DNA of 50,963 nucleotides, from contig JAFWSS010000038.1 in NCBI GenBank assembly GCA_017524385.1, positions 1 through 50,963 of the forward strand. The letters are read 5' to 3'. This document shows, piece by piece, positions 15,338 to 44,100 of this stretch (within the stretch, counting starts at the first letter, position 1; each line of letters begins with the position of its first letter). The position numbers and the translations under genes are program-made. Under the pieces are notes generated by a model, which did no database searches, was not told the origin of the DNA, and worked only from the letters and a program-made list of their open reading frames with translations. This DNA is from Prevotella sp. (GTDB lineage: Bacteria; Bacteroidota; Bacteroidia; Bacteroidales; Bacteroidaceae).

Positions 15338-15342
15338 TTTTA

Positions 15343-15527
15343 AAGTAGGTAATCAAAATTATCTGTTACTATCATTCTTGTAGGTGTTGTATAGTCTTTT
15401 ATGTTTCTTTGGCGCATATTTTTCACTCATCCTCAGTCACATAGCCCGCTATGCTCCTTCGTCTGAGAGCAAAATCTGCATCCAAATAAATCATAAAATA
15501 CTATCATCTAATTTTGATCACCTACTT
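15343..15527. mobile_element. MITE-like element with 19-bp terminal inverted repeats
   Basis: Ends 15343-15361 (AAGTAGGTAATCAAAATTA) and 15509-15527 are inverted repeats with one mismatch, 185 bp in all. The interior carries no gene but contains segments (CATAGCCCGCTATGCTCCTT at 15440-15459 and the CCAAATAAATCATAAAA region at about 15482-15498) that recur at 22569-22722. The right end overlaps the GH8 gene: its stop codon (15518-15520) and the two codons before it lie within the terminal repeat. No target-site duplication is clear. Confidence 0.55.
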
Positions 15528-24959: not shown

Positions 24960-24990
24960 TTGTTAATCTGAATTAAAAAATGTAATTTTG
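24960..24990 (+). promoter_or_regulatory. Promoter of the FAS1-SusCD operon
   Basis: TTG (24960-24962), a 20-nt spacer and TAATTTTG (24983-24990) match the consensus. The predicted start near 24997 lies after an in-frame ATG at 24988, so translation must begin at 25027 or later. No promoter of comparable quality is seen before 45084, suggesting that this one drives the whole run. Confidence 0.7.
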
Positions 24991-25026: not shown

Positions 25027-27567
25027 ATGGTAACCGAAAAGACATTATGGAGCCATCGTCGTAACCGGCTGTTAATGGCTTGCTTTGTGTTGGCTGCGGG
25101 CATTTCCATGACCTCTTGCTCAGATGAGTATGACCTGGATGAGCGTTCCCCTGAAGGTTGGGGTTCGAGCATCTACAATTGGCTCGTGGAAGATGGCAAC
25201 TACACCAACACCGTTCGGATGATTGAGGACTTGGGCTACAAGGAAGTACTCGCGAAGACGGGTTCTAAGACCCTCTTTGTCGCAGACGACCAAGCCTATG
25301 CTCGATTCTTCCAGAACAACAGTTGGGGAGTGAGAAGCTATGAGCAATTCTCCACCTCCCAGAAGAAATTGCTGCTCTTCGGCAGCATGATGGACAACTC
25401 CATGCAGCTCAACAGTCTGCCAAGCGTGGAGGGAACGCCACCCCGTGAGGGAGAGTGTATGAGGCGCTTTGCCTCCAACACCCCCTACGACTCCGTGGCC
25501 ATACTCTATCCCCAACAGATGCCCGACAATCCTTATTGGGCACGTTACAGGGAGTCTGGCAAACCGATGGTGTGCATGACCGACAACTCCGTCGTGCCTC
25601 TTGTGCAGTTCATCGAGAAGCAGTTGGTCAACAAGCGCATCACCAACAACGACTACGATTTCCTCTACAACAAGACTACCCACAGGGTGTCGGGCGACGC
25701 CAGCATCAACGGTGTGCAGGTGGAATCTCCCAACATCAAGTGCTCCAACGGCTTCATCCACAAGATGAGCGAGGTCATCATGCCCTTGCCCAACATGGCC
25801 GAACTGGTAGCGAAGAAACCCAATGTCAGCACCTACAACAAGTTGCTGGAGCGTTTCTGCGCACCATACTGGGTGGGCGAGGCAGTCACTACACAATATA
25901 ATTATTTATATGACCAGAATGTAGACTCCGTATTCCAGAAGCGTTTCTTCTCCGAGAAGTCACAAGGCGGCAACCCTCTCGGCGCCACCCCCACCAACGG
26001 TGCCGTCAACGGCCTGTTGAAGTATGACCCGGAATGGAACGCCTATTACGCCGGACTCGACGACCAGGGTGGCAACATCGCCCTTCAGCGCGACATGGCC
26101 GTTATGATGGTGCCCAGCAACGAAGCCATGGAGGAATACTGGGAGTCGGGAGCCGGCCGTGTGCTGAAGGACTATTACGGCACATGGGAGAACGTCCCCG
26201 ACGAGGTTGTGGTGAAACTTCTGAACAACAACATGCTCAGTTCTTTCGTCTCCTCCGTTCCTTCCAAGTTCCAGGGCATCCTCAACGACGCCAACGACCC
26301 CATGGGCGTGGAGGTGTCGGCCATCGACTCCGTGTGGCTCGGATGCAACGGTGCCATCTACCTCACCAACCATGTCTATTCACCCACCGCATACGTCAGC
26401 GTCTCCTTCCCGGCCTTGGTCAACGAGAGCATGAAGATTCTTTATTGGGGCATCGAGCAGTTACAATATAATGTGTATCTCAACTCCCTCAACTCCTACT
26501 ACAGTTTCTTCATCCCCACCAACAAGGCGTTGCTGGAGTATATCGACCCCGTCTCCTATGGCAAGAACCAGACGCAACTCTTCAGGTTCCATTACGACCC
26601 GACCAAGGTCAACGTGCAAGACAGGGTGTGGGCCGGTATCTATAACTACGACCCGGTGACCGAGACCGTGGGCGACTCCATCGGAAGGGCAGGATACGAC
26701 ATGGTGAGAAACCGCTTGAAGGACATCCTCGACACCCATATCGTCATCGGCAACGTGGAGGACGGACAAACCTACTACCGCACGAAGGGCGGCACTGAAA
26801 TCAAGGTCTCCAACGTCCAGGCCGGCGCCAACGGCATGACCGTGGAAGGCAGTTACCAGACCAATGAAAGCGAACCCCTCAGGGTGAGTTACATCTACGA
26901 CCAGACCGATGGCGGCAACGGCAAGAGCTACATCCTCGACGACAAACCCATCATGGGCACGAGGCAGACCGTGAGGGACGTCCTCGCCAGCAAGCCGGAA
27001 TTCTCCAAGTTCCTCGAACTGATGGACGGCAGCGGCCTGTTTGAGCAAATCCACAACCGTCGCAACGCTTGTGGCGGCACGAACGTCTCCGTCTTCAACA
27101 CCTATCATTATACAATCTACGTTCCCACCAACGAGAGCATCACCGAGTTGCAGAAGCAAGGCAAGCTCTCCTCCTGGGAGGCCGTCGACGCCTTCGAGGA
27201 GGCCGGCAACCTCACCGCCAAGACACGCGACTCGTTGCAGATTGTCAACTTCCTGAAGTACCACATTCAGGACAACGCCCTCTTCATCGGTGCCGGTGAG
27301 GACTCCGGCGACTTTGAGACCGCCGTCATCGACCCCGCCACCGAGCGCTTCTACAGGGTTACCGCCCGACTCACCTCCAGCGGTTTGGAAATCACCGACC
27401 ATGCACGCAACACCCGCCGCGTGGTCACCTCCAACCCCTCTCTTTACAACTTGGTGGCTCGCGAGTTCCAGTACAACACCGCAGATGCGTCTAGTGCCAG
27501 TCAGATAGAGACCTCCTCCTCGGCGGTCATCCATCTCATCGACCAACCGCTGATGATACAGAATTGA
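25027..27567 (+). CDS. Surface lipoprotein with four FAS1 (fasciclin) domains
   Basis: Translated from the ATG at 25027 (the upstream ATG at 24988 precedes the transcription start), the product has 846 residues, a lipoprotein signal ending ISMTSC with C31, and four fasciclin-type H-box motifs: TLFVADDQAYARFF (about residue 83), VMMVPSNEAMEEYW (about 358), SFFIPTNKALLEYI (about 493) and TIYVPTNESITELQ (about 697). FAS1 domains mediate adhesion or protein and glycan contacts. Being first in an operon with two SusCD pairs, it probably sits on the outer face of the outer membrane. A role in glycan capture is inferred; no substrate is known. Confidence 0.85.
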   Translation: MVTEKTLWSHRRNRLLMACFVLAAGISMTSCSDEYDLDERSPEGWGSSIYNWLVEDGNYTNTVRMIEDLGYKEVLAKTGSKTLFVADDQAYARFFQNNSWGVRSYEQFSTSQKKLLLFGSMMDNSMQLNSLPSVEGTPPREGECMRRFASNTPYDSVAILYPQQMPDNPYWARYRESGKPMVCMTDNSVVPLVQFIEKQLVNKRITNNDYDFLYNKTTHRVSGDASINGVQVESPNIKCSNGFIHKMSEVIMPLPNMAELVAKKPNVSTYNKLLERFCAPYWVGEAVTTQYNYLYDQNVDSVFQKRFFSEKSQGGNPLGATPTNGAVNGLLKYDPEWNAYYAGLDDQGGNIALQRDMAVMMVPSNEAMEEYWESGAGRVLKDYYGTWENVPDEVVVKLLNNNMLSSFVSSVPSKFQGILNDANDPMGVEVSAIDSVWLGCNGAIYLTNHVYSPTAYVSVSFPALVNESMKILYWGIEQLQYNVYLNSLNSYYSFFIPTNKALLEYIDPVSYGKNQTQLFRFHYDPTKVNVQDRVWAGIYNYDPVTETVGDSIGRAGYDMVRNRLKDILDTHIVIGNVEDGQTYYRTKGGTEIKVSNVQAGANGMTVEGSYQTNESEPLRVSYIYDQTDGGNGKSYILDDKPIMGTRQTVRDVLASKPEFSKFLELMDGSGLFEQIHNRRNACGGTNVSVFNTYHYTIYVPTNESITELQKQGKLSSWEAVDAFEEAGNLTAKTRDSLQIVNFLKYHIQDNALFIGAGEDSGDFETAVIDPATERFYRVTARLTSSGLEITDHARNTRRVVTSNPSLYNLVAREFQYNTADASSASQIETSSSAVIHLIDQPLMIQN

Positions 27568-27586
27568 CAATTGAAACAAGACAACT

Positions 27587-30500
27587 ATGGCAACAAATAG
27601 AATTAGTAGAATCATTGGGGCTGTCATCCTCTGCCTCCAATTGTCAGTTCTCAGCACCTTTGCACAGAACCCTGGCGACATTGTCAGCGGCACCGTCAAC
27701 GACGCCTACGGGCCAGTGATCGGCGCCAACGTCGTGGAGCTTGACGGCGCCAACCGTATCGTCGCCTCCACTGTGACCGACATCAACGGCAACTTCTCCT
27801 TGAAGATTGTGTCGCCCAAGAACAAGTTGCGTTTCACCTATGTGGGCCACAAGACCGTCACCCAGTCCATCAACAAAGTCAAGTTTGACATCATGCTGTC
27901 CGACGAGGAGCAGCTCGACGAGGTTGTCGTCCTCTCCAAGAAACGTGCTGGAGGCTCCGGCCTGGCCATCCCGGTCGATGAGATCTCCACCGCCCGTGAA
28001 AGCATCAGCATGACAGAGTTTGAAGGACTTTCCATCACCACCGTCGACGAGGCACTTCAAGGCCGTATCGCAGGTCTCGACATCGTGGCCAATTCCGGCA
28101 ACCTTGGTGCCGGCACCTCCATGCGCTTGCGTGGTGTGTCGAGCATCAACGGCTCCAGCGAGCCCCTCATCGTCGTCGATGGCAACGTATGGGAGACCAA
28201 CACCAACAATTTCGACTTCTCATCCGCCAACGAGGAGAAGTTTGCGGAACTCCTCAACGTCAACCCAGAAGACATCGAGAGCATCGACGTGCTCAAGGAT
28301 GCCGCCGCCACCGCCATCTGGGGTTCGCAAGGCTCCAACGGTGTGATTGAGATCAAGACGAAGCGTGGTTCGCGCGGCGCCACCAGGGCCACCTACAGTT
28401 TCCGACTCACGGGCACCTACCAGCCCAACGGTTACAAGATGCTCAATGGCGACGAATACACCATGCTGCTCAAGGAAGAGTATTTCAACCCGTCGATGAG
28501 TGATGCAGCCAGCAACATCCCGGAGTTGAACTACAACCCCAGTTTCCCTGAATACGAGATGTACAACAACAACACCGACTGGTTGAAGGAAGTCAAGCAG
28601 ATAGGTTGGCGCCAGAACCACTACCTCGCCCTCAGCGGCGGTGGTGAGAAGGCCCACTTCCGCATCGGTGCCGGCTACGACCATGAGACCGGCTCCATCA
28701 TCAAGCAGCAGCTCGACCGCTTCACCTCACGTGTGAACCTCGACTATTTCGTCAGCGACCGCATCAAGATAGAGACCAACATCGCCCTCACCTACACCAA
28801 GAATGAGAAGAACAACGGCGACCTCCTCTCCATCGCTTACACGCGCATGCCCAACCTCTCCATCTACGAGCAGGACAAGAACGGCAACGACCTCGACGAA
28901 TACTACAGCATGCTGCCCACCGTCTCCAACGCCTTGAGAGACCAGTTGGGCAACAAGAACCCTATCGCGCTGGCCTATCAAGCCAAGAACCACGACACCA
29001 GTTACAACATCGAGCCGGAATTCAAGCTGAAATATAATTTCTTGGGCCTGAGTGCCTCTGACACCCAACTCAGTTATGAGGGCAAGGTGGTGTTCAACAT
29101 CTTCAACCGTTATGAAGACACCTTCATGCCACTCTCTCTCAGCACGACGGGATGGAATGACACCGATGGCAAGCAAAGCAACAGGACGACCGCCAACTCC
29201 TCCAAGAGTTTCGGTGTCACCACCACCCACACGCTCACCTTCACGCCGGTGTTCAAAAACAAGGACCACTACCTCACGATGCTGCTCCGCGGCCAGTTGA
29301 CCAGTGGCAAGAACAGCTCGCAGAACACCGTGGAGTGGGGACTCCCCTCCGGCACCATCACCAGCCCCGCAGCCCCCGGCATCATCGACGGCATCGGCAC
29401 CGGCAGTGGCCAGTGGAGGAGCATCTATTTCACCTATTCCGCCCACTATGCCTACAAGGGACGCTACGTGCTCGACTTTTCCGTCCGTCGTGACGGCACC
29501 ACCAAGTTTGGTTCCGACCAGCGCTGGGGCAACTTCCCCGCACTCTCCTTGAAGTGGCTCATCCACAAGGAGAAGTTCATCACCGAGCATCTTCCTTGGA
29601 TTTCCACCTTCTCCGTCCGTCCGGGCTGGGGTATCGTGGGCAAGCAACCCGGTTCGGAATACCTCTATTTCAGCAAGTATGCCAACGGAAGCGGGTATAT
29701 GAACGAGCGAAGCATCTATCCGCAGAACATCCAGTTGAAAAACCTGAAATGGGAGCAGAAAGAGACTTGGAACGTAGGTTTGGACTACGGCTTCTTCAAT
29801 GAGCGCATCACCGGTAATGTGGAGGTCTACCGCCAGTACACCACCGACCTGTTGATGAGCGGCAGGGGCATTCCCTCCTCTTCAGGTTTCAGCCGATTCG
29901 ATTGGCAGAACGTGGGTGAGATGAAGAACGTCGGTTGGGAGTTCAACATCAACGGCAACCGCATCATCAGGGCCGGGAAGTTCAGCGTCGATTTCAACGT
30001 CACCTTCGCCAACAACAAGAACCAGATCACCGCCATGGAGGAGACCTGCCTCGCCAGCCTCAACAGCGAGTTCGACCGCAACAACGGTTCCTACCTCTCC
30101 CGCGTGGAGCTCAACCGCTCCTTGGGCAGCATCTACGGTTTCCGCTACAAGGGAGTCTATCAATACTCCGACTACACACCTGAGGAGATCAAGGGTGTCA
30201 GCGGCCCCAACGCCCCCGTCGTCAGGGATGAGAACGGTGTGGTCATCATCGACGAGAACGGTATGACCAAGCCTATGACCTTCTGCTACGGGTCGGTCAA
30301 CTATGAGTTCCGCGGCGGCGACGCCATCTACGAGGATGTCAACCACGACGGTCAGATCAACGAACTTGACATCGTCTATCTCGGTTCGTCACTTCCCAAG
30401 TTCACCGGTGGTTTTGGTTTCAAACTCAATTTCGGCCGCTTCACCTGGAACAACCAGTTCAACTTCAGGTATGGCAATAAGATAGTGAATCGCGCGCGCA

Positions 30501-30883
30501 TGCGTGTTGAAAATATGTATGAGAACAACAACCAGAGCCGTGCCGTCAACTGGAGATGGCGTGTTGAGGGCGATGTGACAGAAATCCCACGCGCACTTCA
30601 TCAGTCGGGCTACAACTGGTTGGGCAGCGACCGCTTCGTGGAAGACGGGTCGTTCATCAGGCTCAATTACTCGCAGATCAGCTACAGCCTCGACCCCAAA
30701 TTGCTGAAGAAATGGGGCCTGAAGCAAGTGAGCCTCTATGTCTCAGCCAACAACTTGTTCTGCCTCACCAAATATTCCGGAGCCGACCCGGAAGTGGGCT
30801 ATGGTTCGTTCGGACTGGTGACCGACGAAGCAAAGACACCTCGTTCGAAATCTTTCACCGGAGGTATTACGATTCAATTCTAA
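27587..30883 (+). CDS. SusC/RagA-type TonB-dependent transporter (first pair)
   Basis: The 1098-residue product has a signal peptide (about 1-26, ending STFAQ), a CarboxypepD_reg-like domain (about 32-115, with GTVNDAYGPVIGANVV and FTYVGHKT), a TonB-plug region (about 140-255, with LRGVSSINGSSEPLIVVDG) and a long beta-barrel ending GGITIQF. This is the standard SusC layout, importing oligosaccharides with its SusD partner. It starts 19 nt after the FAS1 gene; susD follows almost immediately. There is no N-terminal anti-sigma-interacting extension, so ECF signalling through this transporter is unlikely. Confidence 0.93.
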   Translation: MATNRISRIIGAVILCLQLSVLSTFAQNPGDIVSGTVNDAYGPVIGANVVELDGANRIVASTVTDINGNFSLKIVSPKNKLRFTYVGHKTVTQSINKVKFDIMLSDEEQLDEVVVLSKKRAGGSGLAIPVDEISTARESISMTEFEGLSITTVDEALQGRIAGLDIVANSGNLGAGTSMRLRGVSSINGSSEPLIVVDGNVWETNTNNFDFSSANEEKFAELLNVNPEDIESIDVLKDAAATAIWGSQGSNGVIEIKTKRGSRGATRATYSFRLTGTYQPNGYKMLNGDEYTMLLKEEYFNPSMSDAASNIPELNYNPSFPEYEMYNNNTDWLKEVKQIGWRQNHYLALSGGGEKAHFRIGAGYDHETGSIIKQQLDRFTSRVNLDYFVSDRIKIETNIALTYTKNEKNNGDLLSIAYTRMPNLSIYEQDKNGNDLDEYYSMLPTVSNALRDQLGNKNPIALAYQAKNHDTSYNIEPEFKLKYNFLGLSASDTQLSYEGKVVFNIFNRYEDTFMPLSLSTTGWNDTDGKQSNRTTANSSKSFGVTTTHTLTFTPVFKNKDHYLTMLLRGQLTSGKNSSQNTVEWGLPSGTITSPAAPGIIDGIGTGSGQWRSIYFTYSAHYAYKGRYVLDFSVRRDGTTKFGSDQRWGNFPALSLKWLIHKEKFITEHLPWISTFSVRPGWGIVGKQPGSEYLYFSKYANGSGYMNERSIYPQNIQLKNLKWEQKETWNVGLDYGFFNERITGNVEVYRQYTTDLLMSGRGIPSSSGFSRFDWQNVGEMKNVGWEFNINGNRIIRAGKFSVDFNVTFANNKNQITAMEETCLASLNSEFDRNNGSYLSRVELNRSLGSIYGFRYKGVYQYSDYTPEEIKGVSGPNAPVVRDENGVVIIDENGMTKPMTFCYGSVNYEFRGGDAIYEDVNHDGQINELDIVYLGSSLPKFTGGFGFKLNFGRFTWNNQFNFRYGNKIVNRARMRVENMYENNNQSRAVNWRWRVEGDVTEIPRALHQSGYNWLGSDRFVEDGSFIRLNYSQISYSLDPKLLKKWGLKQVSLYVSANNLFCLTKYSGADPEVGYGSFGLVTDEAKTPRSKSFTGGITIQF

Positions 30884-30884
30884 T

Positions 30885-32585
30885 ATGGAAAAAATAACCA
30901 TTATGATGGACAAAATCAAACATATCATGGTAGCCGCATCCCTGGTGTTCACTCTCACGGGATGCTCCGACTTCCTCGACATCCTCCCCATGAACGAGGT
31001 GGTGCTCGAAAACTTCTGGACGGAGAAAGGCGACGTGACCAGCGTGATGAACAGTTGCTATGAGACGCTCGAAAGCGGCGACTGCCTCACCAGGATGGGT
31101 GTGTGGGGAGAGTTGCGCTCCGACAACCTCAGACTCGGCTCTTCCGTTCCCAATGAGATCAACGAGATACTCAAGGAGAACCTTCTCCCGTCGAACCCCA
31201 TGTGCAACTGGTCGAGTTTCTATGTGGCCATCAACCGTTGCAACACCGTTTGCCATTACGCACCGATGGTGCAGGAAATCGACCCCAACTACACGTTGGA
31301 GGAGATGAAGGCCAACATCGCCGAGGCCACAGCCATCAGGGCGCTCTGCTACTTCTACCTCATCCGCACCTTCCGCGACGTGCCCTACACCACGCAGCCC
31401 AGCATCGACGACACCCAGCCTTACGTCATCCCTGCCACTCCGTTCAACGCCGTGCTCGACTCCCTCATCATCGACCTTGAGAAGGTGAAGGACGACGCCG
31501 TGAGGAGATACTATCAGGACGACAGCCCCAATGCCTACCAGAACTCGAGCAAGATCACCCGGTGGGCCATCTACGCCCTGCTTGCCGACCTCTACCTGTG
31601 GAAAGGCGACTGGGACAACTGCATCAGGTATTGCGACATGGTCATCGATTTCAAGAAGGAGCAATACAAGGAGATGATAGAGCGTGAAGGCAATGTCAAC
31701 AACATCGCTCTCTTCGGCGACATTCCCATGATCCTGGAGAAGCCAGTGGGCAGCACCGTCTGCGGCAACGCTTACAATGAGATATTCGGAGAAGGCAACT
31801 CCTTCGAGAGCATCTTTGAATTGTATTTCCGCTCCAACCAGAGCCAGCAGAACTCATGGGTGAGCAGTTATTACGGAAACAACAACACCACCATGGGCCG
31901 CCTCAGCGCCCCCGACTTCCTCTGCAAGGATGCCGCCTTGGGCAACAACTTGATTTTCAAGAAAACCGACGGAAGGGTGTATGAGTCGACCGAACTCGAC
32001 AACTCCAGTTACGCCATCACGAAGTTTGTGAGAAGAAGCGTGAGTTATTCCACCCAGAACGTCACGAAGGAAGCCGACCTCAACTTGTCGAGTTCACGTC
32101 GTTCCAGCTCCGATGCCAACTGGATTTTCTACCGCCTGAGCGACATGCTGCTCATCAAGGCAGAGGCAGAGATACAGCGTGGCGAGGGCGGTTACGAAAG
32201 GGCTTTCAACCTCATCAACATCGTCAACAAGCGTGCCAACGACGTCATCAACAACGCTCGCACAGACACGTTGAAGATGGCCGACTATGTCACTTCCAAG
32301 GCATCCATGGAGGAACTGCTGCTGGAAGAGCGCCAAAGAGAGTTCATGTTTGAAGGCAAGCGCTGGTTCGACCTCGTCAGGGTAGCAAGGAGGGATGGCA
32401 ACAACACCAGGCTCATCTCCCTGGCTTCGAGGAAATACATCGAGAATGTCAATGCCATCAAGATCAAGTTGGCCGACCCCAACATCATCTACTTCCCCTA
32501 TGCGAAGAGCGAACTCAAGGTTAACCCTTTGCTAGTGCAGAACCCCGCCTTCGGCAACGAGGAAGACAATGAACTGACCAAATAA
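30885..32585 (+). CDS. SusD/RagB-type surface glycan-binding lipoprotein (first pair)
   Basis: The 566-residue product has a lipoprotein signal ending FTLTGC, then the SusD fold with the N-terminal motif DFLDILPMNEV and C-terminal LLEERQREFMFEGKRWFDLVRVAR, diagnostic of RagB/SusD. It forms the lid of the SusC transporter. An ATG at 30903 is also possible and would give a shorter signal peptide with more usual spacing (19 nt) from susC; the ATG at 30885 lies 1 nt after the susC stop. Confidence 0.93.
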   Translation: MEKITIMMDKIKHIMVAASLVFTLTGCSDFLDILPMNEVVLENFWTEKGDVTSVMNSCYETLESGDCLTRMGVWGELRSDNLRLGSSVPNEINEILKENLLPSNPMCNWSSFYVAINRCNTVCHYAPMVQEIDPNYTLEEMKANIAEATAIRALCYFYLIRTFRDVPYTTQPSIDDTQPYVIPATPFNAVLDSLIIDLEKVKDDAVRRYYQDDSPNAYQNSSKITRWAIYALLADLYLWKGDWDNCIRYCDMVIDFKKEQYKEMIEREGNVNNIALFGDIPMILEKPVGSTVCGNAYNEIFGEGNSFESIFELYFRSNQSQQNSWVSSYYGNNNTTMGRLSAPDFLCKDAALGNNLIFKKTDGRVYESTELDNSSYAITKFVRRSVSYSTQNVTKEADLNLSSSRRSSSDANWIFYRLSDMLLIKAEAEIQRGEGGYERAFNLINIVNKRANDVINNARTDTLKMADYVTSKASMEELLLEERQREFMFEGKRWFDLVRVARRDGNNTRLISLASRKYIENVNAIKIKLADPNIIYFPYAKSELKVNPLLVQNPAFGNEEDNELTK

Positions 32586-32615
32586 GTCCCGCACAACCTT
32601 TAACAGATAAGAATC

Positions 32616-34541
32616 ATGAAGAAATTACCCATATTCCTATTAGCCGTCCTGGTCATCGGTTTTGTCGCTTCCTGCGTCGACAATGACGACGACGTGCCCA
32701 TGAACTACTACCAGTCGAAGAAGGTCACTGCGGCAGGCTTCCTGGAGGACAACCAGGAGCAGTTCAGTGAGTTCATCGCCATCCTCAAGCGGACACCTTA
32801 TTTCTCCATGCTGTCCACTTATGGCACCTTCACCCTCTTCGCCCCCAACAACGAAGCCATCGGGAGGTATCTCAGCCGCTCCGGTTACGGCACAGTGGAC
32901 AACATCCCCACCGAGACCTGCGACACCCTTGCGCGCACGCACATCATCAAGAAAGGTGCCTTCTTCACCACCGACATCGGCGAGGGAGCATTGCCCGAAC
33001 TGAACATGGACGATTCCTACATCGTCCTCTCGAGCGACTCCGATGTCAACAACCACAACGCCCTCGTCTATTACATCAACAAGAACTCCAGGATGATCGA
33101 CTACAATGACTCCGTCACCAACGGTGTCGTCCACGTCATCAACAACGTCATCACCTCCAGCAGCCTCCTCCTCCCCGACAAGATAGCAGAGGACCCTGAG
33201 CTCACCATCTTCTCACAGGCACTCAGCCTGACGGGAATGTGCGACTCACTGACGAAATATCTCGACGAGAGCTATTATTGCAGCGAGGACTCCGTGCACG
33301 AGGGTGTGATGGTGCGATGCACCTCGGGTTCCGCCCTCTACACCCGCTCGTTCTGGCCAGAGAAGCGCTATTTCAAGTACACCGCCTTTGTCGAGCCAGA
33401 CTCTGTTTATCGTAACAAGGGCATCAACAACATCGAGGACCTCAAGGCGTATGCCAAGAGCGTGTATGACCAGACCTTCCCCGAGGATGCCGGCAAATAC
33501 GACGACAACCCCAAGGACCGCCGCAACCCGCTCAACCGCTTTGTCAGCTACCACCTCCTGCCCCGCATCGGACAGTACAACAGCTGGGTGATGTCAGGAG
33601 AGTTGAGGGAGCACTGCTGGTACACCTCTCTCAGCGACCCCGAGGAGTTCTATGAGACGATGTGCCCAGGCACCATCATGAGGTTCGCCGGACCATCCGC
33701 CGGCCTCTTCATCAACCGCAAGGGTTTGCAGAACAGGTACACCGTGCGCGGTGTCAAGGTCCTCTCCCCGTCGGAGTCGGGAAGCACCGACCAGAACGCG
33801 CTCAACGGTGTCTATCACTATCTCGACGACATCCTCGCCTACACACCAGAGGTGAGAGACGTGGTGCTCAACTGCCGCATCCGCATCGATGCCACCGTCT
33901 TGAGTCCCGACTTCATGAACTGCAACGGTCGTGGCCGCTACGGAGAGGACATCCTCACCGGTTTCAAGAACAAGTACATCACCGACTGGAAAGTGAGCGA
34001 CGAAACCTATGTGGGCGTGCATAGCGACGTGGGTTATTGGAACTCCTACCAAGCCAATGCCGTCTGTATCAGCGGTGTCTTCGACGTGGCCTTCAAACTC
34101 CTCCCCGTGCCTTCAGGCACCTATGAGGTAAGGCTCGGCTACACCGTGGGCGAGGAACGCGGAGTCGTGCAGGTCTATCTCAACAACGAGCCTTGCGGCA
34201 TCCCCGTCGACCTCAGGGTTTACGGTCCCGACCCCAACATCGGCTGGATGGAAGACACCGACGACGAGGAAGAGAACAGGGCCAACGACAAGGCCATGCA
34301 CAACAGAGGTTACATGAAGGGTATGGACAGTTACCGCCCATGGGATGCCGACCATCCTCTTCGTGGCAACAACTGGAACCTCAGAAGGGTTCTTGCCACA
34401 CAGTACCTGGATTCCAACAAGACTTATTACCTGCGCTTCCGCCAGGTGCTCGACGACCCAGACCGCTATTGGTCGTTCGACTACATCGAACTTTGCCCGA
34501 AGAGCATCTATGGAAGTCCGGAGGGAGAAGATACGCATTAA
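32616..34541 (+). CDS. FAS1-domain lipoprotein with C-terminal carbohydrate-binding-like domain
   Basis: The 641-residue product has a lipoprotein signal VIGFVASC (cysteine about 20). Two FAS1-like domains span about 38-185 (H-box FTLFAPNNEAIGRYL) and 190-400. Residues about 415-635 form a beta-rich domain (DVVLNCRIRIDATVLSPDF, then SGTYEVRLGYTVGEERGVVQVYLN) resembling galactose-binding-like modules that end YWSFDYIELCP. It lies 30 nt after susD1 and 28 nt before the next FAS1 gene. The combination suggests a glycan-binding partner of the SusCD complex, though this is inferred. Confidence 0.83.
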   Translation: MKKLPIFLLAVLVIGFVASCVDNDDDVPMNYYQSKKVTAAGFLEDNQEQFSEFIAILKRTPYFSMLSTYGTFTLFAPNNEAIGRYLSRSGYGTVDNIPTETCDTLARTHIIKKGAFFTTDIGEGALPELNMDDSYIVLSSDSDVNNHNALVYYINKNSRMIDYNDSVTNGVVHVINNVITSSSLLLPDKIAEDPELTIFSQALSLTGMCDSLTKYLDESYYCSEDSVHEGVMVRCTSGSALYTRSFWPEKRYFKYTAFVEPDSVYRNKGINNIEDLKAYAKSVYDQTFPEDAGKYDDNPKDRRNPLNRFVSYHLLPRIGQYNSWVMSGELREHCWYTSLSDPEEFYETMCPGTIMRFAGPSAGLFINRKGLQNRYTVRGVKVLSPSESGSTDQNALNGVYHYLDDILAYTPEVRDVVLNCRIRIDATVLSPDFMNCNGRGRYGEDILTGFKNKYITDWKVSDETYVGVHSDVGYWNSYQANAVCISGVFDVAFKLLPVPSGTYEVRLGYTVGEERGVVQVYLNNEPCGIPVDLRVYGPDPNIGWMEDTDDEEENRANDKAMHNRGYMKGMDSYRPWDADHPLRGNNWNLRRVLATQYLDSNKTYYLRFRQVLDDPDRYWSFDYIELCPKSIYGSPEGEDTH

Positions 34542-34569
34542 CATCAATCACTAACAGACAAAATTCATC

Positions 34570-36174
34570 ATGATGAACCATAAACATATCATCTGTGCCA
34601 TCTTCGCCCTCTGCGGCCTCGTTGGTTGCTCAGAATGGGATGACCATTACGAGGACACCAGTGTGGTTGGCAGTTCCACCACGCTATGGGAAGAACTGAA
34701 GGCGAAGCCCGAACTCAGCGACTTCTGCCAGGTGTTGGAGCAGACCAAGGTTTTCAGAATGCACAAGAAGACCCCTGTGAGTTATGCCGACCTGCTCAAC
34801 AGCGGACAGTCGTTCACCGTCGTGGCTCCTGTCAACGGGACATTCAACAAGGACTCGTTGCTCAATCTCGTCCAGACCAACCAGGGCGACTCCGTGGTGG
34901 AGCGATTCTTCGTTCTCAACCACCTCTCGCGCACCCTCCGCTCCGTCTCCCCCGTTCCCAACAACATGTTGCTGCTCAACTCCAAATACGTGGAAGTGGG
35001 AACAGATGCCATCGAGGGCGTAGGTGTGGTCTCTCCCAACAATCATGCCAAGAACGGCGTGCTCCATGTCACAGCAGGCCCGCTGCCTTATCGCTACAGC
35101 CTTTATGAGCAGTTGTGCAACAATGCAGGTCTGAACCAGATCGGCACGGTGCTGCGCACCTACCAAGAGGACTATTTCGATGCCGAGCACTCTGTGTCCA
35201 GCGGCATCGTGGAAGGCGTCCCCATCTATGTCGACTCCGTTGTCATCGAGCGCAACAAGATGCTTCAACGCATCGGCTACATCGACTCCGAGGACTCCAC
35301 CTACATGATGGTCGTCCCCTCCAACGCTGGATGGGCGAAGGCATGGGCAGAGGCCAGCAAGCATTTCGTCTATGACGAGACAGTGCAGAAACGCGACTCC
35401 TTGCAGCAGTATTGGACAACCCGTGCACTCCTCGACGACGCCATCTTCAACGTCACCGACCAGAAGTCAGTGCAAGACTCCCTTGTCTCCGTGCAATATA
35501 CCCGTTCCACACCAGAATATCACGTCTTCTACAAGCCGTTCGCCCAGGGAGGCATCCTGGCAGGAGCCCTGCCAGTGGAATGCAGCAACGGCCAGTTGTA
35601 TGTCACCCAGGAGTGGCCCTTCAACCCGGCAGACACCTATTTCAAGGAAATATGGAGCGAGGCAGAGGCCACACAGCTCATCCTGCAGGAGAAAGACTGC
35701 CAGTACAACGTCAGGCACATCGCAGTCGACAGCATCTCCAAGGGAGGCTACCTCCATGTCGTCCCACGTACCGCCACCTCCAACTGGGAACTCACCTACA
35801 AGGTGAACAACACCCTCAGTGGCGACTACGACGTCTGCGCCATCATCCTTCCCAAATCCGTCGACAACCCCATCAACCCCAACTTGAAACCATGCAAGTT
35901 CAGGGCGCTCATCACCTACGTCGACTCTCTTGGCAACGAACAGACGTTCAACTGCGGCAACACGCAGTTCAAGACCAACCCCGAGAAGGTGGACACCGTG
36001 GTCCTCGCAGAGAACTTCCATTTCCCTGCCTGCAACTTCGACCAGAACGACATCAAGGTCACCGTGAAACTGACCTGCTCCATCCTGGCAAGAGAGACTT
36101 CCTCTTATGCTCGTGAGATGTATATCGACTGCATCTATCTGAGACCAAGAACCACTAAATCCGAAGAACAATGA
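34570..36174 (+). CDS. FAS1-domain lipoprotein, shorter
   Basis: The 534-residue product has a lipoprotein signal ALCGLVGC (cysteine about 20) and two FAS1-like domains (about 38-170 with FTVVAPVNGTFNKDSL, and about 175-345), followed by a beta-rich domain (about 370-530) that is similar in strand pattern to the C-terminus of the preceding protein. Two ATG codons are adjacent (34570 and 34573). Its stop overlaps the ATG of the second susC by four bases (ATGA), showing tight translational coupling. Probably anchored on the cell surface. Confidence 0.8.
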   Translation: MMNHKHIICAIFALCGLVGCSEWDDHYEDTSVVGSSTTLWEELKAKPELSDFCQVLEQTKVFRMHKKTPVSYADLLNSGQSFTVVAPVNGTFNKDSLLNLVQTNQGDSVVERFFVLNHLSRTLRSVSPVPNNMLLLNSKYVEVGTDAIEGVGVVSPNNHAKNGVLHVTAGPLPYRYSLYEQLCNNAGLNQIGTVLRTYQEDYFDAEHSVSSGIVEGVPIYVDSVVIERNKMLQRIGYIDSEDSTYMMVVPSNAGWAKAWAEASKHFVYDETVQKRDSLQQYWTTRALLDDAIFNVTDQKSVQDSLVSVQYTRSTPEYHVFYKPFAQGGILAGALPVECSNGQLYVTQEWPFNPADTYFKEIWSEAEATQLILQEKDCQYNVRHIAVDSISKGGYLHVVPRTATSNWELTYKVNNTLSGDYDVCAIILPKSVDNPINPNLKPCKFRALITYVDSLGNEQTFNCGNTQFKTNPEKVDTVVLAENFHFPACNFDQNDIKVTVKLTCSILARETSSYAREMYIDCIYLRPRTTKSEEQ

Positions 36175-39100
36175 GAAAGATACTTATTTTCGTATTGTTG
36201 ATGGCGGCAGTATCGATGACCGCCCAGGACATGAAGAACGTGACGGGACAAGTGGTGGATGCCGCGACAGGGAAACCTTTGTCGGGTGTCATGGTGCAGG
36301 CCTATGGCGATGCGAGATACTCCACCCTTACCGACGAGCAAGGCAACTACGTGCTCAAGACACCTGAATACACCCGCTCCATCATCATCAGGGTTGATGG
36401 ATACAACCTCGAGCAGAGCGCAGTGAGGAACGGTGTGGCCAATGGCAAGCTTTACCCGGAAAGCTTTGGCGAACTCTACAAGACGGCCACCAGCGCCACC
36501 GCCACAGCAGAAGCATCCAACTTCGCCAACACCTCCGAAGTCAGCATCGACCCGCTCGTGTCACAACAGATTGCCGCCGACGTCAGGCCAACCACGCTCA
36601 GCGGACTGCCCGGAATGGGAGGGCGCATGCTCATCGGAGGCATCAACTCCCTGCATGCCAACAGCCAGCCCCTCGTGGTCATCGACGGTGTCATCATGGA
36701 CATGCAGTACAACCGCGACATGCTTCACGACGGCTACTACAACAACATGCTTGCCAACCTCAATGTCAACGACATCGAGAAGGTGACCGTGCTGAAAAAC
36801 GGCACCGCCCTCTTTGGAGCGAAAGCCGCCGACGGTGTGATCCTTATCCAGACCAAGCGCAACAAGAGCATGGCCACCAAAATCGACGTGACCATCAACG
36901 GACGCTATGAACTGGTGCCGAAGCTTCCCGATATGATGGATTCCGAGGACTACAGGCTGTACACCACAGAATTGCTGGCCGGCAAGACCAAGTTGCAGGG
37001 TTCGATGAAATATTTGAACAACGATCCCAACTACTTCTACTACAAGCAGTATCACAACCAGACCGACTGGACGAAGGAAGTGTATGAGAGCGCCTTCTCC
37101 CAGAATTACGGCATCAACGTTCAGGGTGGTGACAACGTGGCGTCATACAACCTCTCCGTGGGCTATTCCTTGGGAAACAGCACGCTGAAGAAGAACGACT
37201 TCTCCAGGTTCAACATGCGCCTCAACTCAGACATCGAGGTCATCAGAGGGCTTGATGTCAGATTCGACGCCTCCTACAGCGACCTCGACCGTTCGCTCAC
37301 CGACGACGGTGCGCCCATCGACCCGCTCGAGGGCGTCATCACCTCTCCGTCATTCCTCGGATTGGCCAAGGCTCCTTTCCTCTCACCCTATGCCTACGAT
37401 ATGAACGGCAACCTCAGCCACTACCTCTCCGAGGCCGACGACTACCTCGAGGGAATGTTCCAAGGCAAGGGAAGACTCGCCAACCCGACGAGCATCCTCA
37501 AGAATGGCGACGGCACCAACCGCAACTCCTTCGGCAGCCGACTCATCATGTTCGCCATCACTCCGAAAGTGAGACTCAACAGGCATCTCAAACTGGCTGA
37601 GCATTTCTCCCTCGGACTGGTCAACACCAACGAGAACTACTACCTCCCCATCATGGGCGTGCCCACGTTCACCATCAAGGGACTTGACGAGGGTGCAACA
37701 CTTCAGAACTATGTGCAGAGTGCTTCCGCAAGGCAGACATCCATCCAGAGCGACACTTATCTCGACTGGAACAACCGTTACGGAGCGCACCGCATCAACT
37801 TCAGGGGCGGCGTGAGGTATCTCACCAGCGAATACAAGTCCACTTGGCAAAGAGGCTACAACACCGGCAACGACAAGACGCCCAACATGAGCAACTCCTT
37901 GCAGTTCAAGAAAACCGGTGGCGCCGACGACAAGTGGAAGGAAATAGCATGGTATGGCGTGGCAGGCTACAACTACGCCGAGCGCTTCTATCTTGACGGT
38001 GGCTTCTCCCTCCAGTCGTCCTCACGCTTCGGCGACGATGCCGACGGACTGAAACTGGCAGGAGTGGTGTGGGGCCTCTTCCCCAGCATCGAGGCGGCAT
38101 GGGTGCTCTCCAACGAGAAGTTCCTCGCCAACTTGAAAGGCATCAACTACCTCAAGATCAATGCAGGATTCGATGTCACCGGCAATGACGACATCGACTA
38201 CACCGCCTCACGAAGCTATTTCGTGTCCAACCTCATGCTCAACAACGAAGTCACAGGACTCTCCATCGGAAACATTGGCAACACCGAACTGAAATGGGAA
38301 ACCACGAGGCGTGTGACCGCAGGACTGGAAGCCAATTTCCTTAACAACAGGATCAGCCTTAGGGCCAACATCTTCAAGAGCTGGACGGAGAACCTCCTCG
38401 CCTTGAGGCAACTCGCCTGGACCAGCGGCTTGCAGGAGACATGGACCAACGCTGGCAAATTGGAGAACAGCGGCTTCGATGTGAGCCTCAAGGCAAAGGT
38501 GCTTGCCCTCAAAGACTTCCAATGGGAGGTTGGCGCATCCGTCGGACATTATTCCAACGAGATCACCGCACTGCCCGATGGGCGCTCCTTTGAGACGGAA
38601 GCCTATGGTGCCAACATCCTGACAAAGGTGGGCCAGCCCGTGGGCGTCTTCTATGGATGGAAGACCAACGGCGTCTATCAGAACACCACGCAAGCCACCA
38701 GCGAAGGGCTGTACATCGACACGCCGACGGGTGGACGCAGCTATTTCCAAGCCGGAGACATGCGTTTCGCCGACCTCGACGGCAACAAAGTCATCAATGA
38801 TGCCGACAAATGCATCATAGGAGACCCCAACCCCGACCTCTACGGAAACATCTTCACCACGCTCTCGTGGAAGAGGTTCTCCCTCTCTGCCGTATTGAAT
38901 TACTCTCTGGGCAACGACCTCTACAACTACCAGCGCTCGCTGCTCGAAGGAGGAAGCTTGTTCCTCAACCAGACCACGGCCATGAACAACCGTTGGAACA
39001 CCGAGGGGCAGCTGACCACCATCCCAAGGGTCAGTTACGACGACCCGATGGGCAACTCACGCTTCAGCGAAAGATGGATAGAGGATGGCAGCTATCTCAG

Positions 39101-39320
39101 GCTCAGTTCAGTCACCCTCAGCTACCACCTGCCCATCATCAGCACCTACCTGCAAGGCATCACCGTGTGGGGTAATGCCTCCAACCTCTTCACCATCACC
39201 AAATACCTGGGAAGCGACCCCGACAGGGCATTGCCCGGAAGCCAGCTCTACCAAGGCATAGACTTCGGATGTCTCGCCCCGGGACGCACCTTCTCACTCG
39301 GTGTCAATATCAACCTCTAA
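36171..39320 (+). CDS. SusC/RagA-type TonB-dependent transporter (second pair)
   Basis: The 1049-residue product has a signal peptide (about 1-18, ending MTAQ), a CarboxypepD_reg domain (about 22-95, with GQVVDAATGKPLSGVMV), a plug (about 120-240, with LVVIDGVIMDMQ and VTVLKNGTALFGAKAADGV) and a barrel ending FSLGVNINL. It is clearly diverged from the first SusC: the plug has LIGGINSLHANSQ in place of LRGVSSINGSS. Two different pairs in one operon suggest two glycan sizes or decorations. It overlaps the preceding FAS1 gene by 4 nt. Confidence 0.93.
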   Translation: MRKILIFVLLMAAVSMTAQDMKNVTGQVVDAATGKPLSGVMVQAYGDARYSTLTDEQGNYVLKTPEYTRSIIIRVDGYNLEQSAVRNGVANGKLYPESFGELYKTATSATATAEASNFANTSEVSIDPLVSQQIAADVRPTTLSGLPGMGGRMLIGGINSLHANSQPLVVIDGVIMDMQYNRDMLHDGYYNNMLANLNVNDIEKVTVLKNGTALFGAKAADGVILIQTKRNKSMATKIDVTINGRYELVPKLPDMMDSEDYRLYTTELLAGKTKLQGSMKYLNNDPNYFYYKQYHNQTDWTKEVYESAFSQNYGINVQGGDNVASYNLSVGYSLGNSTLKKNDFSRFNMRLNSDIEVIRGLDVRFDASYSDLDRSLTDDGAPIDPLEGVITSPSFLGLAKAPFLSPYAYDMNGNLSHYLSEADDYLEGMFQGKGRLANPTSILKNGDGTNRNSFGSRLIMFAITPKVRLNRHLKLAEHFSLGLVNTNENYYLPIMGVPTFTIKGLDEGATLQNYVQSASARQTSIQSDTYLDWNNRYGAHRINFRGGVRYLTSEYKSTWQRGYNTGNDKTPNMSNSLQFKKTGGADDKWKEIAWYGVAGYNYAERFYLDGGFSLQSSSRFGDDADGLKLAGVVWGLFPSIEAAWVLSNEKFLANLKGINYLKINAGFDVTGNDDIDYTASRSYFVSNLMLNNEVTGLSIGNIGNTELKWETTRRVTAGLEANFLNNRISLRANIFKSWTENLLALRQLAWTSGLQETWTNAGKLENSGFDVSLKAKVLALKDFQWEVGASVGHYSNEITALPDGRSFETEAYGANILTKVGQPVGVFYGWKTNGVYQNTTQATSEGLYIDTPTGGRSYFQAGDMRFADLDGNKVINDADKCIIGDPNPDLYGNIFTTLSWKRFSLSAVLNYSLGNDLYNYQRSLLEGGSLFLNQTTAMNNRWNTEGQLTTIPRVSYDDPMGNSRFSERWIEDGSYLRLSSVTLSYHLPIISTYLQGITVWGNASNLFTITKYLGSDPDRALPGSQLYQGIDFGCLAPGRTFSLGVNINL

Positions 39321-39332
39321 AAAGACAGGAAA

Positions 39333-41033
39333 ATGAAACACATCATTCAATTCTTCACAGTCATCACCCTGTCGGCCTTCCTCTTCGGCTGCGCCGACCT
39401 TATGGAAACCGACTCTGAGCTTGTAGAGTTTGAGGAGGACAACACCCTGAACCATCCCACCGACACCGTATATAGTGTCATGGGCATCATGGGGAAGATG
39501 CAGCTCATCGCCGACCGCACCGTACTTCTTGGCGAGGTGAGAGGAGACCTGCTGACCACCACCGACGCCGCCAACGCCGACCTCAAGAGGCTCGCCGCCT
39601 TCGACGTCACCCCCGACAACAAGTACAATGTCGTGAGCGACTACTATGCCGTGATCAACAACTGCAACTACTTCATCCAGCATGTCGACACCACTCTGCA
39701 GCGCAGGGGAAGAACCATCTTCACCTCTGAATATGCCGCAGTGAAAGCCTTCAGGGCCTGGACCTACCTCCAGCTCGCTCTCGCCTATGGCGAGGTGCCC
39801 CTGGTCACCGATCCGGTGATGACGGAACAGGACGCCAAGAACGAGATGAACAAGGCCAGGTCGGGCATCGTAGACATCTGCAACTACTTCATCGACGACC
39901 TCAAGCCCTACGCACTGGTGGAGAAACCGAAATACGGGTCCATCAACGGCATCAGTTCCGAATTCTTCTTCATCCCCGTCAGGGTGCTGCTGGGCGACCT
40001 CTGCCTTTGGGCTGGACGCTACCAGGAGGCAGCCACATGGTATCATGACTACCTCAACGACAAGAGCGAACCGAGGCCAATGAATGCGTCGGCACGCTCC
40101 AGATGGAACACCAACATCACCGAGTTCAACCTCGCTACGCCCATCAACGGATACGATGTCGCCAACACCCGCGAGACCCTCTGCCTCATCCCGATGGAGG
40201 ACCGCATTTTCGACGGTGTGGTGAGCGACTTGCAGAACGTGTTTGGCTCCACCCGCGAGAACAAGTATTTCTTCCAGGTCACTCCTTCCCAGGCCATGAT
40301 GGACTTGTCGTCAGACCAGACCTATTGCATGGAGTTCAAGACCGACACCGAGACCGACACCATCTATGTTCCCAAGGTGGGACTCATGAGAGATGTCATG
40401 GTGGGCGACCTCAGACTCTGGTCCAACTTCACCCAAAACTCCGTGGGAGGAAAGGACGAGTATTCGGAAGAGTCCACCATCCGTCAGAACTTTAACAAGA
40501 TCACCTCCAGGTGGGTGGCCATGTACCGTCTCAACATGATTTATCTCCGCTATGCCGAGGCACTCAACCGCTGCGGCCTGCCACAGTCGGCGATGGCCGT
40601 GCTGAAATACGGCCTGTGCCCGGAGAACGTGGTGGCATACGTCGACAGTACGGAGCAGGTGGCAGCCGGCAACCTCATCGCCTTCGACAGCAATGTCTTC
40701 ACTCGTGAGAACACCATCGGCATCCACTCCATCGGTTCGGGCGACTCGCAAGCCAACGGTCTCTACGTGCTGCCCATGCCAAGTGAGCCTCTGGCCACGC
40801 GTCAGGACACCGTCAACTACCAAATCCCCCTCGTGGAGGACATGATAGTCAACGAACAGGCGCTTGAGGGCGCTTTCGAGGGCTACCGCTTCTACGACCT
40901 GATGAGAATCGCGATGCGACGCAACGCCCCAGAATACCTCGCCGTTCCCATCTCCAAGCGCAACGGCGTGGTGGACGAAGCACTTCGTGCCCGCCTCATG
41001 GAAAGGAGGAACTGGTATCTGCCACTACCTTGA
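39333..41033 (+). CDS. SusD/RagB-type lipoprotein (second pair)
   Basis: The 566-residue product has a lipoprotein signal SAFLFGC and a SusD-like fold: an N-terminal ADLMETDSEL region, TPR-like helices (AAVKAFRAWTYLQLALAYG) and a C-terminal EGAFEGYRFYDLMRIAMRR, which corresponds to the family motif. It partners the second SusC, starting 12 nt after it. It is followed by a 9-bp hairpin before the next gene. Confidence 0.92.
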   Translation: MKHIIQFFTVITLSAFLFGCADLMETDSELVEFEEDNTLNHPTDTVYSVMGIMGKMQLIADRTVLLGEVRGDLLTTTDAANADLKRLAAFDVTPDNKYNVVSDYYAVINNCNYFIQHVDTTLQRRGRTIFTSEYAAVKAFRAWTYLQLALAYGEVPLVTDPVMTEQDAKNEMNKARSGIVDICNYFIDDLKPYALVEKPKYGSINGISSEFFFIPVRVLLGDLCLWAGRYQEAATWYHDYLNDKSEPRPMNASARSRWNTNITEFNLATPINGYDVANTRETLCLIPMEDRIFDGVVSDLQNVFGSTRENKYFFQVTPSQAMMDLSSDQTYCMEFKTDTETDTIYVPKVGLMRDVMVGDLRLWSNFTQNSVGGKDEYSEESTIRQNFNKITSRWVAMYRLNMIYLRYAEALNRCGLPQSAMAVLKYGLCPENVVAYVDSTEQVAAGNLIAFDSNVFTRENTIGIHSIGSGDSQANGLYVLPMPSEPLATRQDTVNYQIPLVEDMIVNEQALEGAFEGYRFYDLMRIAMRRNAPEYLAVPISKRNGVVDEALRARLMERRNWYLPLP

Positions 41034-41135: not shown

Positions 41136-44100
41136 ATGCGAAAGCTTTACAAAATTTTCATCGCACTGACACTATGCGTGTTTGGCGTGGTGAACGCGAA
41201 TGCAGGCGAGCGCACACCGCTCACCCCCGACATTTTCTTCGCGTGGGACGGATGGGGTGCTGATGCACAGCAGACCGGTCCCGCCGATTGTGCTTACGTG
41301 CTAAATGAGTCAACAGGACAGCCCTATGGTGACCCCTCGGTCATCAACTACGCCGACCTGTCGCTCTACTCGAAACTCTATGTCACGTGCACGGAGGGAA
41401 CACCCCGCTTCCTCTTCAACCGCACGAAGGATGAAGGCCAGTACAATGAGAACGAGGCAGAGTCCTACCTCCTCGAGTATCCCAAGAACGGCTGGTCTGA
41501 CCGTTACTTCACCAAGGACGGCGACACCTACATCGTCGACCTCAAGCAGATGGTGAAGGACAAGGGCTTCGCCCACCTCCACGCCATCAAGGGCGCCAAC
41601 TGGGCCAATGTCACCGTCACAGCCATGGATCTCGAGCGTGAGGGCAAGGCACAGCAGGTGGGATGGACCGACCTCCTTGTCAACGGCAACCTCGAGGGTG
41701 ACGACGTCTCCAGCTTCTTCTCCAAGGAAGCCCCCTCTACAGAAGTTCTCCCCTCCGTCATCTACGACGGTGTCGGTGTCGATGGCAGCCGTGGCATCAT
41801 GGTGCAGTCTGCCGACAATCCCACGCAGGATTGGGACACCCAGTTCTGGATGTACTTCCAGGAGAACATCCCCGAAGGCACCAAGTGGCGTGTGTCCTTC
41901 GACTATCGTGCCAGCCAGGATGGTGGCTCCGATACCCAGGCCCATGCCGAGCCAGGCGACTACATCCACTATGAGATGATTGGCTCGCCCAACTTCTCCA
42001 CCGAGTGGCAGCACTGGACCAACGAAGGCGTTGTCACAGCAACCCAGGCCGGTCCCAATGGCAATGGCGGCCTCTTCCACTCCATCGCCTTCAACCTCTC
42101 CAAGAACAAGGTGGCCACACAGTTCTTCTTCGACAACCTCAAGTTTGAAATCTTCAAGGTCGGTACCGTGGCTGAGTTCTCCAACGACGTCATCCTCATC
42201 GACTTCGGTTTCGAGACCAACATGAAGGAACTCGTGCAAGCCAGCGGACAGAAACGCTTGATGTACCCGCTCAATTGCGTCACCGTCAAGGTCAATGGCG
42301 AAGTGAAGGAGCTCTACTCCGTGGAAGGCTTCGAGGACGGACGCTTCTACATCTTCCTCAACGAGGGTGTCGAGCCCAACGACTTGGTGGAGGTGACCTT
42401 CACCAACCCGGGCGACCAGAAGTACCACCTCACTTATCAGTCGGGCCCCGGTGGTGATGTGCAAAACTTCACCGGCGTAGCCGAGTACAACCCCGAAGTG
42501 GAGGAGAACGACGGCTATCCTTACGACTACCTCACACCTGTTGTCATGGTGGCCGACCCCGAGGATGGTTCCTTCAACCTCCCCAACAGCATCAAGGAGT
42601 TCAAGCTGAAGTTTGACAAGGATGTCGACTGCGGCGCTTTGGAAGCCAAACTCAACAACGAGTCACTGAGCATCTCACCCGCCGAGGGCAATGCTTCAGA
42701 GGTCACTCTTGTCCGCAACAGCTCCAACGACCTCGCTGATGGCGAGTACACACTCCATGTCACCAAGATCTATCCCATCCTCCGACTGGATGACTCCATC
42801 TACGGCGACACCATCATCACCATCAACGTCGGCAAGGTCAACACCGACCCGAACGATGTGCCGAAGGACATCCTGCCCGACTACCTGGCATCTGCACCCA
42901 ACGGCGGCATCCCCGAGGGTTACCTCGTCATCTTCGGCGAAGGTGAGGAGCGCGTGGCTCCCAACACCTTCAGCTCAGGCGCTCGCGTGTTCGACTTCGC
43001 TGCCGGTGGTGATTTCACCAAGGGCCTCTATTTCCGCGACAACTATGTGGAGTATGGCTGCTTCACCGACTACCCACTCCCCTTGGAGGCAGGCAAGAAG
43101 TATGATGTGTCCTTCAACGCTGCTGGCTGGAAGGACAATGGCGGTTGGATGAAGTTCCAAATCCTCACCGAGTCTGAGGAGATTGTCTTCGAGACCGTGG
43201 TCAAGACCGCTCCCAATGTCAACGGAAGCACCGGTGCTGTCAACGGCGCCGCAAGCTTCAACACCAAGTTCGTGCCCGACTTTACTGGCAACTACAAACT
43301 CAGATGGATTCCCGCCACCAACGAGAATGGCGACCAGGGTGGTTTCAACGAGGTGATCCTCGCCAACCCGAGAGTCAAGTATGTGCCCAATGTCGCCGGT
43401 ATCGAGGAGACCCAACTCCTTGCCACCGCATTGGAGAATGCCAAGAGCACTCTCGCAGCCAACTCCGAAGACAGGTATAGTGGTGCTGCTTTCGACTTGC
43501 TGAATTCTCTCATCCAGAAGTACGAGGCCGAAGGCCCCAACTACACTGCTCCTTCCGCTTACAGGAACGCCGCCGCCGCCCTTGACGCTGCTGCACAGGC
43601 ACTCAAGGATCACCGCGTGCTTTGCGACACCTATGACGCACTGCCCACCAGGGCTCAGCAGATCGTGGACAACAATGCAGAGAAGAAGTTCGCTGCCACC
43701 GCACTCTATGCAAGCCTCAAGGAGACTGCCGCCAAGTATGTCACCAAGGAGACCAGCACCGTGACCGATCCTGAGACCGGTGAGACCTCCGAGGTTGTCA
43801 ACTACATCATCAAGGTCATCAAGGACGACGCTGAACTCCAGGCCGCCATCGAGGAACTCCAGTACCTCGTCAACACCACCGACCTCCTCTTCACCGAGGG
43901 TGAGTCGAAGACTTCCGACACTGGCGTGAAGGTGCTCGTCGAGCGTCTCCGTCTGGGTGCCGAGGCCCTCAAGAGCCTGGGTGCCGGCGACGACCCGCTG
44001 GTTGCCGCTGCCAACAACGCCCTCACCGACGACGATGGCTTGGCAGAAGCCATCCAGAACAAGTTGAAGGTTGTGCTCTATGAGCAACTTAAAGACCCCA

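Follow-up and report, generated by a model that had tools for sequence, protein, structure and literature searches.

A seven-gene cassette of FAS1-domain lipoproteins and two SusCD pairs is conserved in Bacteroidota and may serve glycan import

Contig JAFWSS010000038.1 of the Prevotella sp. assembly GCA_017524385.1 (50,963 nt, referred to here as the window) carries seven genes arranged head to tail at 25027-41033: FASA, SusC1, SusD1, FASB, FASC, SusC2 and SusD2. Two SusCD pairs of the type found in polysaccharide utilization loci (PULs) are thus accompanied by three lipoproteins with FAS1 domains, and we found that this cassette is real, conserved and more general than was apparent from a first, sequence-only reading of the window. 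Since the seven-gene order recurs in many relatives, distant ones among them, FAS1 proteins would seem to be permanent components of a machinery for capturing plant fibre. We consider it reasonably likely that the genes form one inherited import cassette, in which three surface FAS1 lipoproteins act as the glycan-binding proteins of two SusCD importers. FAS1 is an adhesion domain for which few bacterial roles have been worked out. With a FAS1-SusCD cassette that recurs in several orders, and in certain gut and rumen genomes in several copies, bacterial FAS1 proteins would gain a function and surface glycan-binding proteins (SGBPs) a second architecture; the arrangement also raises the question of what keeps two unlike importers in one cassette.

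The gene coordinates (Table 1) bear out the order, the 1-30 nt gaps and the single 4 nt overlap described in the sequence-only reading, the intergenic gaps from FASA to SusD2 being 19, 1, 30, 28, -4 and 12 nt. By Pfam and NCBIfam assignment, susC adjoins susD in both pairs, as in a Sus-type PUL. The source assembly consists of 5.05 Mb in 272 contigs, with a contamination estimate of 6.56%, and the window is its contig C38. Two more, diverged FAS1-SusCD cassettes are present in the same genome, on contigs C120 and C21 (loci L010, L011 and L013). The C120 cassette is without FASA, which probably lies on the 3 kb contig C59; in the C21 cassette the SusD genes are visible in the locus, and were overlooked by automated order calling where open reading frame (ORF) calls overlapped.

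A search with FASB yielded 53 Prevotella-group loci, the closest relatives being records mostly of ruminant origin, and the complete seven-gene order was present in 50 of them; the other three (L022, L023, L041) stop at a contig edge. The genome record of Xylanibacter muris carries the cassette (L037). FASB-type matches were obtained in 105 of the 151 sampled genomes of Bacteroidaceae, as many as 11 in one genome. Forty Bacteroidaceae matches from 31 genomes were hand-picked down the list of best matches, at least two of which duplicate members of the 53 (L169 is L034 and L170 is L037, at distance zero); the strict order was found in 30, with four variants and six lone FASB genes (L186, L190, L191, L193, L196, L203). 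SusD2 was undetected in one variant (L187), SusC1 was present as two ORFs in another (L188), and L207 and L208 have three consecutive FASB genes between SusD1 and FASC. Among 11 further loci picked for partial matches to the FASB model, three lie in cassettes (L232 being cut by a contig end) and eight lie outside, including L235, with a SusC-like ORF on the opposite strand, and L239, which is split. Four more Bacteroidaceae genomes with weak FASB matches all had the seven genes, one SusD2 being cut by the stretch edge.

The strict order extends to other families of the order (G007, G029, G058) and to other orders of the class (G066, G080, G092). At the place of FASC, G023 has a 626 aa ORF without a Pfam match; G061 has no recognisable FASC, and the cassette of G038 is split over two contigs. 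The first scan of distant loci used models without distant members, and later models included members from most of them. FAS1 was found in 11 of 60 genomes of an order-wide sample and in at least 43 of 99 of a phylum-wide one; the samples were found via FAS1, and the counts therefore describe the FAS1-cassette family and not all FAS1 genes or PULs. Because the order is conserved across so many loci, a chance arrangement is excluded, and the gene-neighbourhood check proposed with the sequence-only reading came out in its favour in the Prevotella group, in the Bacteroidaceae and beyond; the refuting condition set there, a lack of this gene order in related genomes, did not apply. That reading had called four FAS1 repeats in one bacterial lipoprotein unusual, a word that is true of the open-access literature searched but not of genomes, given the frequency of FASB-type genes in Bacteroidaceae.

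Two further features of these loci were observed. Full-length FASB-type genes without an adjoining SusCD occur in the six lone loci and in L230, L231, L233, L234 and L236, and some genomes have more than one of them. Directly before FASA, about 10-20 nt away, an ORF of 352-549 aa with no Pfam match is present in L244 (where it is cut by the edge), L247 and L250 (genomes G306, G164 and G250).

Patristic distances correlated between the genes at 0.93-0.98, both across 87 complete cassettes and across the 79 that remained after eight near-identical ones were dropped (including the window and two records in both sets). For pairs more than 1.0 apart (2409 of 3081) the correlation was still at least 0.89, and the maximum over 200 label permutations of FASB-SusC1 was 0.28. 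Seven genomes have two cassettes; the two copies are widely separated (tree distances 1.0-3.4) and for the most part find their partners in cassettes from elsewhere, with three of the seven genes of G209 pairing within the genome. By these tree comparisons, the seven genes share one history.

A promoter-like pattern of the Bacteroidetes type, TTG-N20-TAATTTTG, is found exactly where the consensus promoter had been claimed before FASA. Of the 85 cassettes whose upstream sequence is long enough, 63 have the -7 motif TANNTTTG before FASA, against about 0.15 expected by shuffling; before each of the six internal genes it occurs in 1-13 of 87. A stricter two-element pattern was present before FASA in 11 of 85 cassettes (about 0.009 expected) and before the six other genes in 0-3 of 87; generic sigma-70 and terminator scans gave no excess over shuffles. 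Because the gaps are short and the -7 motif is enriched solely before the first gene, the sequence evidence supports a single transcription unit. No gene for a hybrid two-component system (HTCS), SusR or an extracytoplasmic function sigma factor was found among the 20 window proteins scanned, which are part of the window's ORFs; HTCS genes are located near several of the relative cassettes.

The FAS1 profile of Pfam (PF02469, cut-off 22 bits) scores 57.9, 59.1 and 32.6 bits in FASA, FASB and FASC, respectively. The lipobox cysteine, at residue 31 in FASA and residue 20 in FASB and FASC, does not vary among the aligned sequences of each protein (37 of 37, counting that of the window), supporting the earlier claim that all three are predicted lipoproteins; it was read from alignment columns, a simple regular expression having picked cysteines within the signal peptides. 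Directly after the cysteine, the window proteins have acidic residues (SDEYD, VDNDDD and SEWDD), a stretch that we take to resemble the surface export signal of Bacteroidota lipoproteins.

The sequence-only reading had assigned four FAS1 domains to FASA and listed FASB and FASC each as one FAS1 unit. Profile comparison shows three of the FASA domains clearly and the second of the four weakly; a distant FASA homologue has four Pfam FAS1 stretches. FAS1 domains alone are recognised in FASA, at the sequence level only (Pfam and profile comparison). Single-sequence profile matches in FASA are sparse, with none in 61 of 87 cassettes, and the classical FAS1 profile delimited domains better than FAS1-protein profiles from 37 close sequences, which were too weak. 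The description of FASB and FASC needed correction to two FAS1 domains each. Both are seen by profile comparison and structure model in FASB; in FASC the first is clear, and the second is seen in the structure model and is weak by profile. The models of both proteins show the FAS1 fold, and their predicted C-termini resemble carbohydrate-binding modules (CBMs) of the CBM6/35 type, in agreement with the beta-rich, carbohydrate-binding-looking ends noted earlier. All 10 cassette FASB proteins examined have this CBM-like C-terminus. Among 11 additional ones it is present in nine; the remaining two are truncated at a contig end (L238) or split (L239). A domain swap with an exchanged FASB C-terminus, prompted by matches to the FAS1 part alone, was rejected on the presence of the domain in those nine regions.

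We favour a model in which FASA, FASB and FASC would serve two different SusCD glycan importers as SGBPs. Polysaccharide would be held by the CBM-like C-terminal modules of FASB and FASC. The distance of these modules from the membrane would be set by FAS1 domains in tandem, of which there are probably four in FASA and two apiece in FASB and FASC, and which may also dock the modules to the lids of the SusCD importers. The likeliest substrate in the window is complex (glucurono)arabinoxylan, which a GH98 enzyme (glycoside hydrolase family 98) encoded nearby would cut at the cell surface; relatives may use the cassette for rhamnogalacturonan or another plant matrix glycan. The FAS1 genes are encoded beside susC and susD and inherited with them, as are those of SGBPs, and from position, predicted folds and shared inheritance we infer that the cassette works like a PUL importer with SGBPs. 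On the same grounds, glycan binding by the FAS1 proteins or their docking to SusCD would be the most economical reading. Of the glycan capture or scaffolding first suggested for FAS1, capture draws support from a gene position like that of SGBPs and from C-termini predicted to fold like CBMs, and docking or scaffolding would be compatible as well. Operon linkage alone also yields correlated distances of the kind we observed, so that these speak for shared inheritance and not for contact between the proteins. More tentatively, and with less than even chances, FASA, FASB and FASC might be stoichiometric and bridge the two unlike importers into one outer-membrane complex for a single complex polysaccharide, an assembly that would be conserved over several Bacteroidota orders and is undescribed so far.

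It is also conceivable, though we think it unlikely, that the FAS1 lipoproteins are mainly assembly factors that tie two non-identical SusCD into a fixed hetero-complex, with glycan binding secondary. One each of FASA, FASB and FASC is co-inherited with two unlike SusCD in the large majority of cassettes, FAS1 domains are better conserved than C-termini between distant cassette pairs, and the recognition of FAS1 domains alone in FASA fits such a role. A strict 1:1 composition is hard to square with the triple FASB genes of L207 and L208, and the retention of the CBM-like C-terminus in almost every FASB protein examined also weighs against this reading.

An adhesive role for the FAS1 lipoproteins, towards plant particles or other cells, with nothing but the promoter shared with the importers, appears improbable. 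FAS1 is the classical adhesion domain, lone FASB genes occur, and bacterial FAS1 genes have been read as adhesion genes, as the available parts of two reports indicate (PMC10199937, PMC2668756). However, mere sharing of a promoter accords poorly with a strict order around two SusCD pairs across distant families and with co-inheritance with both importers. Nor is FAS1 as such linked to SusCD: none of seven regions fetched for other FAS1 genes (L130-L136) contained SusC or SusD, and among 56 short FAS1 loci a SusC or SusD piece was found in 10, all from four cassette genomes. Two simpler layouts nevertheless occur, in which one SusC-SusD pair is accompanied by one FAS1 protein of about 480 aa, encoded directly behind it (L141) or one ORF further on (L143).

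Table 1. Features of the FAS1-SusCD cassette and its surroundings in the window
Feature	Position	Strand	Remarks
FASA lipoprotein, 846 aa	25027..27567	+	Pfam FAS1; three clear and one weak FAS1 domain
SusC1, SusC/RagA-type TonB-dependent transporter	27587..30883	+	Pfam; NCBIfam TIGR04056, 705 bits
SusD1 lipoprotein	30885..32585	+	Pfam
FASB lipoprotein	32616..34541	+	FAS1 at about 36-181 and 186-410; predicted CBM-like C-terminal sandwich 413-632
FASC lipoprotein	34570..36174	+	FAS1 at about 33-175; FAS1-like second domain to about 350; predicted CBM-like C-terminal sandwich 353-527
SusC2, SusC/RagA-type TonB-dependent transporter	36171..39320	+	Pfam; NCBIfam TIGR04056, 547 bits
SusD2 lipoprotein	39333..41033	+	Pfam
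Promoter-like site, Bacteroidetes-type, TTG-N20-TAATTTTG	24960..24990	+	Pattern match
Esterase with CBM48-like part	22937..24808	+	Resembles feruloyl-esterase half of xylanase/feruloyl esterase
P8, 1243 aa, signal-peptide-like start	41136..44867	+	102 nt gap after SusD2
GH98 enzyme	45139..48258	+	271 nt after P8; Pfam and solved-structure matches

The carbohydrate-active enzymes at the window locus are the GH98 enzyme and the feruloyl-esterase-like esterase. The former matches GH98 endoxylanase entries of Bacteroides ovatus at 561 bits, the next solved GH98 entries following at 37 bits, and this far closer match makes a blood-group or mucin substrate, which GH98 might have implied, unlikely. 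The esterase scores 159 bits against the NCBIfam xylanase/feruloyl esterase model, whose family cut-off is 1200, and belongs to a neighbouring unit because it lies upstream of the promoter. As these neighbours include a GH98 enzyme nearest the B. ovatus endoxylanase and a feruloyl-esterase-like enzyme, a plant matrix glycan is the expected substrate, in the window probably a complex xylan, (glucurono)arabinoxylan. In the short flanks of the 53 relatives, GH98 was found in six (upstream flank) and the esterase in two. Among the proteins selected from the flanks of other cassettes are PL11 (polysaccharide lyase family 11), a PL4-like lyase, GH106, GH28, GH88, GH115 and GH35, together with GH5, GH9, GH115 with GH43-CBM6 and a GH51-type arabinofuranosidase; the remaining flank proteins scanned, from part of the flank ORFs, were housekeeping proteins or without a match. 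Judged by its neighbours, the cassette appears to be a module for plant matrix glycans in general. Import of a non-polysaccharide, such as glycopeptides or another glycosylated polymer, with the neighbouring enzymes incidental, is very improbable: several cassettes have no carbohydrate-active enzyme among the flank proteins scanned, and peptide import is proposed for SusC proteins of other Bacteroidales in the available part of one report (PMC7661554), but the two enzymes beside the window cassette, the GH98 genes in its relatives and the plant-cell-wall enzymes around several distant cassettes all oppose it.

P8 gave no significant Pfam, NCBIfam or PDB match, and its C-terminus presumably resembles a type IX sorting tail. 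Relatives of P8 flank other cassettes, in 17 of the 53 loci (short flanks) and also in L173, L178, L179, L181 and L183. Elsewhere in the window, on the minus strand at 13841-17692, a gene for a Sde182-like cellulose-binding protein adjoins a gene with GH8 and DUF4380 matches.

Searches of the open-access literature, which leaves out subscription papers and most preprints, brought up no account of FAS1 proteins belonging to SusCD loci. FAS1 and SusCD appear together in one paper, in the accessible sections of which FAS1 is a hint of adhesion unconnected to the SusCD loci of that study (PMC10199937); nor is FAS1 linked to SusCD loci in the corresponding sections of PMC7661554, PMC12008871, PMC12420790 and PMC2668756. 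A review of FAS1 proteins names, in the part available, mycobacterial, rhizobial and cyanobacterial examples (PMC6032426).

Like the Sus-type SGBPs (SusE/F-like), the FAS1 proteins are lipoproteins encoded beside susC and susD, with predicted beta-sandwich C-terminal domains; unlike them, they number three per locus, one of them encoded before susC, and would use FAS1 domains as spacers in place of the usual Ig-like domains. In contrast to the FAS1 proteins of adhesion (periostin, TGFBIp and fasciclin I), those of the cassette are bacterial lipoproteins of a putative glycan import operon, with CBM-like C-termini in FASB and FASC. The xylan utilization system xusABCD-E of a xylan-degrading Prevotella group has two susC-susD pairs in tandem and adjacent to each other, whereas in the window two FAS1 genes separate the pairs and a third leads. 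No GH10, the family of the Xyn10C-type enzyme of that system, was found among the 20 window proteins scanned. The rhamnogalacturonan-II locus BT1024-BT1030 of Bacteroides thetaiotaomicron may have the layout of the window cassette. BT1028 is listed as a RagB/SusD family protein in the available part of PMC10434189, which fits that layout and does not show it. A close parallel is PUL-XylL of B. ovatus, a locus for complex xylan: in its intact form this xylan did not support growth of a strain mutated in the surface GH98 xylanase (PMC4491172). In the sections of that report available, the SGBP of PUL-XylL is an inactive GH10 (BACOVA_03431) and no FAS1 protein is named, but PUL-XylL resembles the window in combining two SusC/D pairs with a GH98 endoxylanase, BACOVA_03433, which in PUL-XylL acts at the cell surface (PMC4491172).

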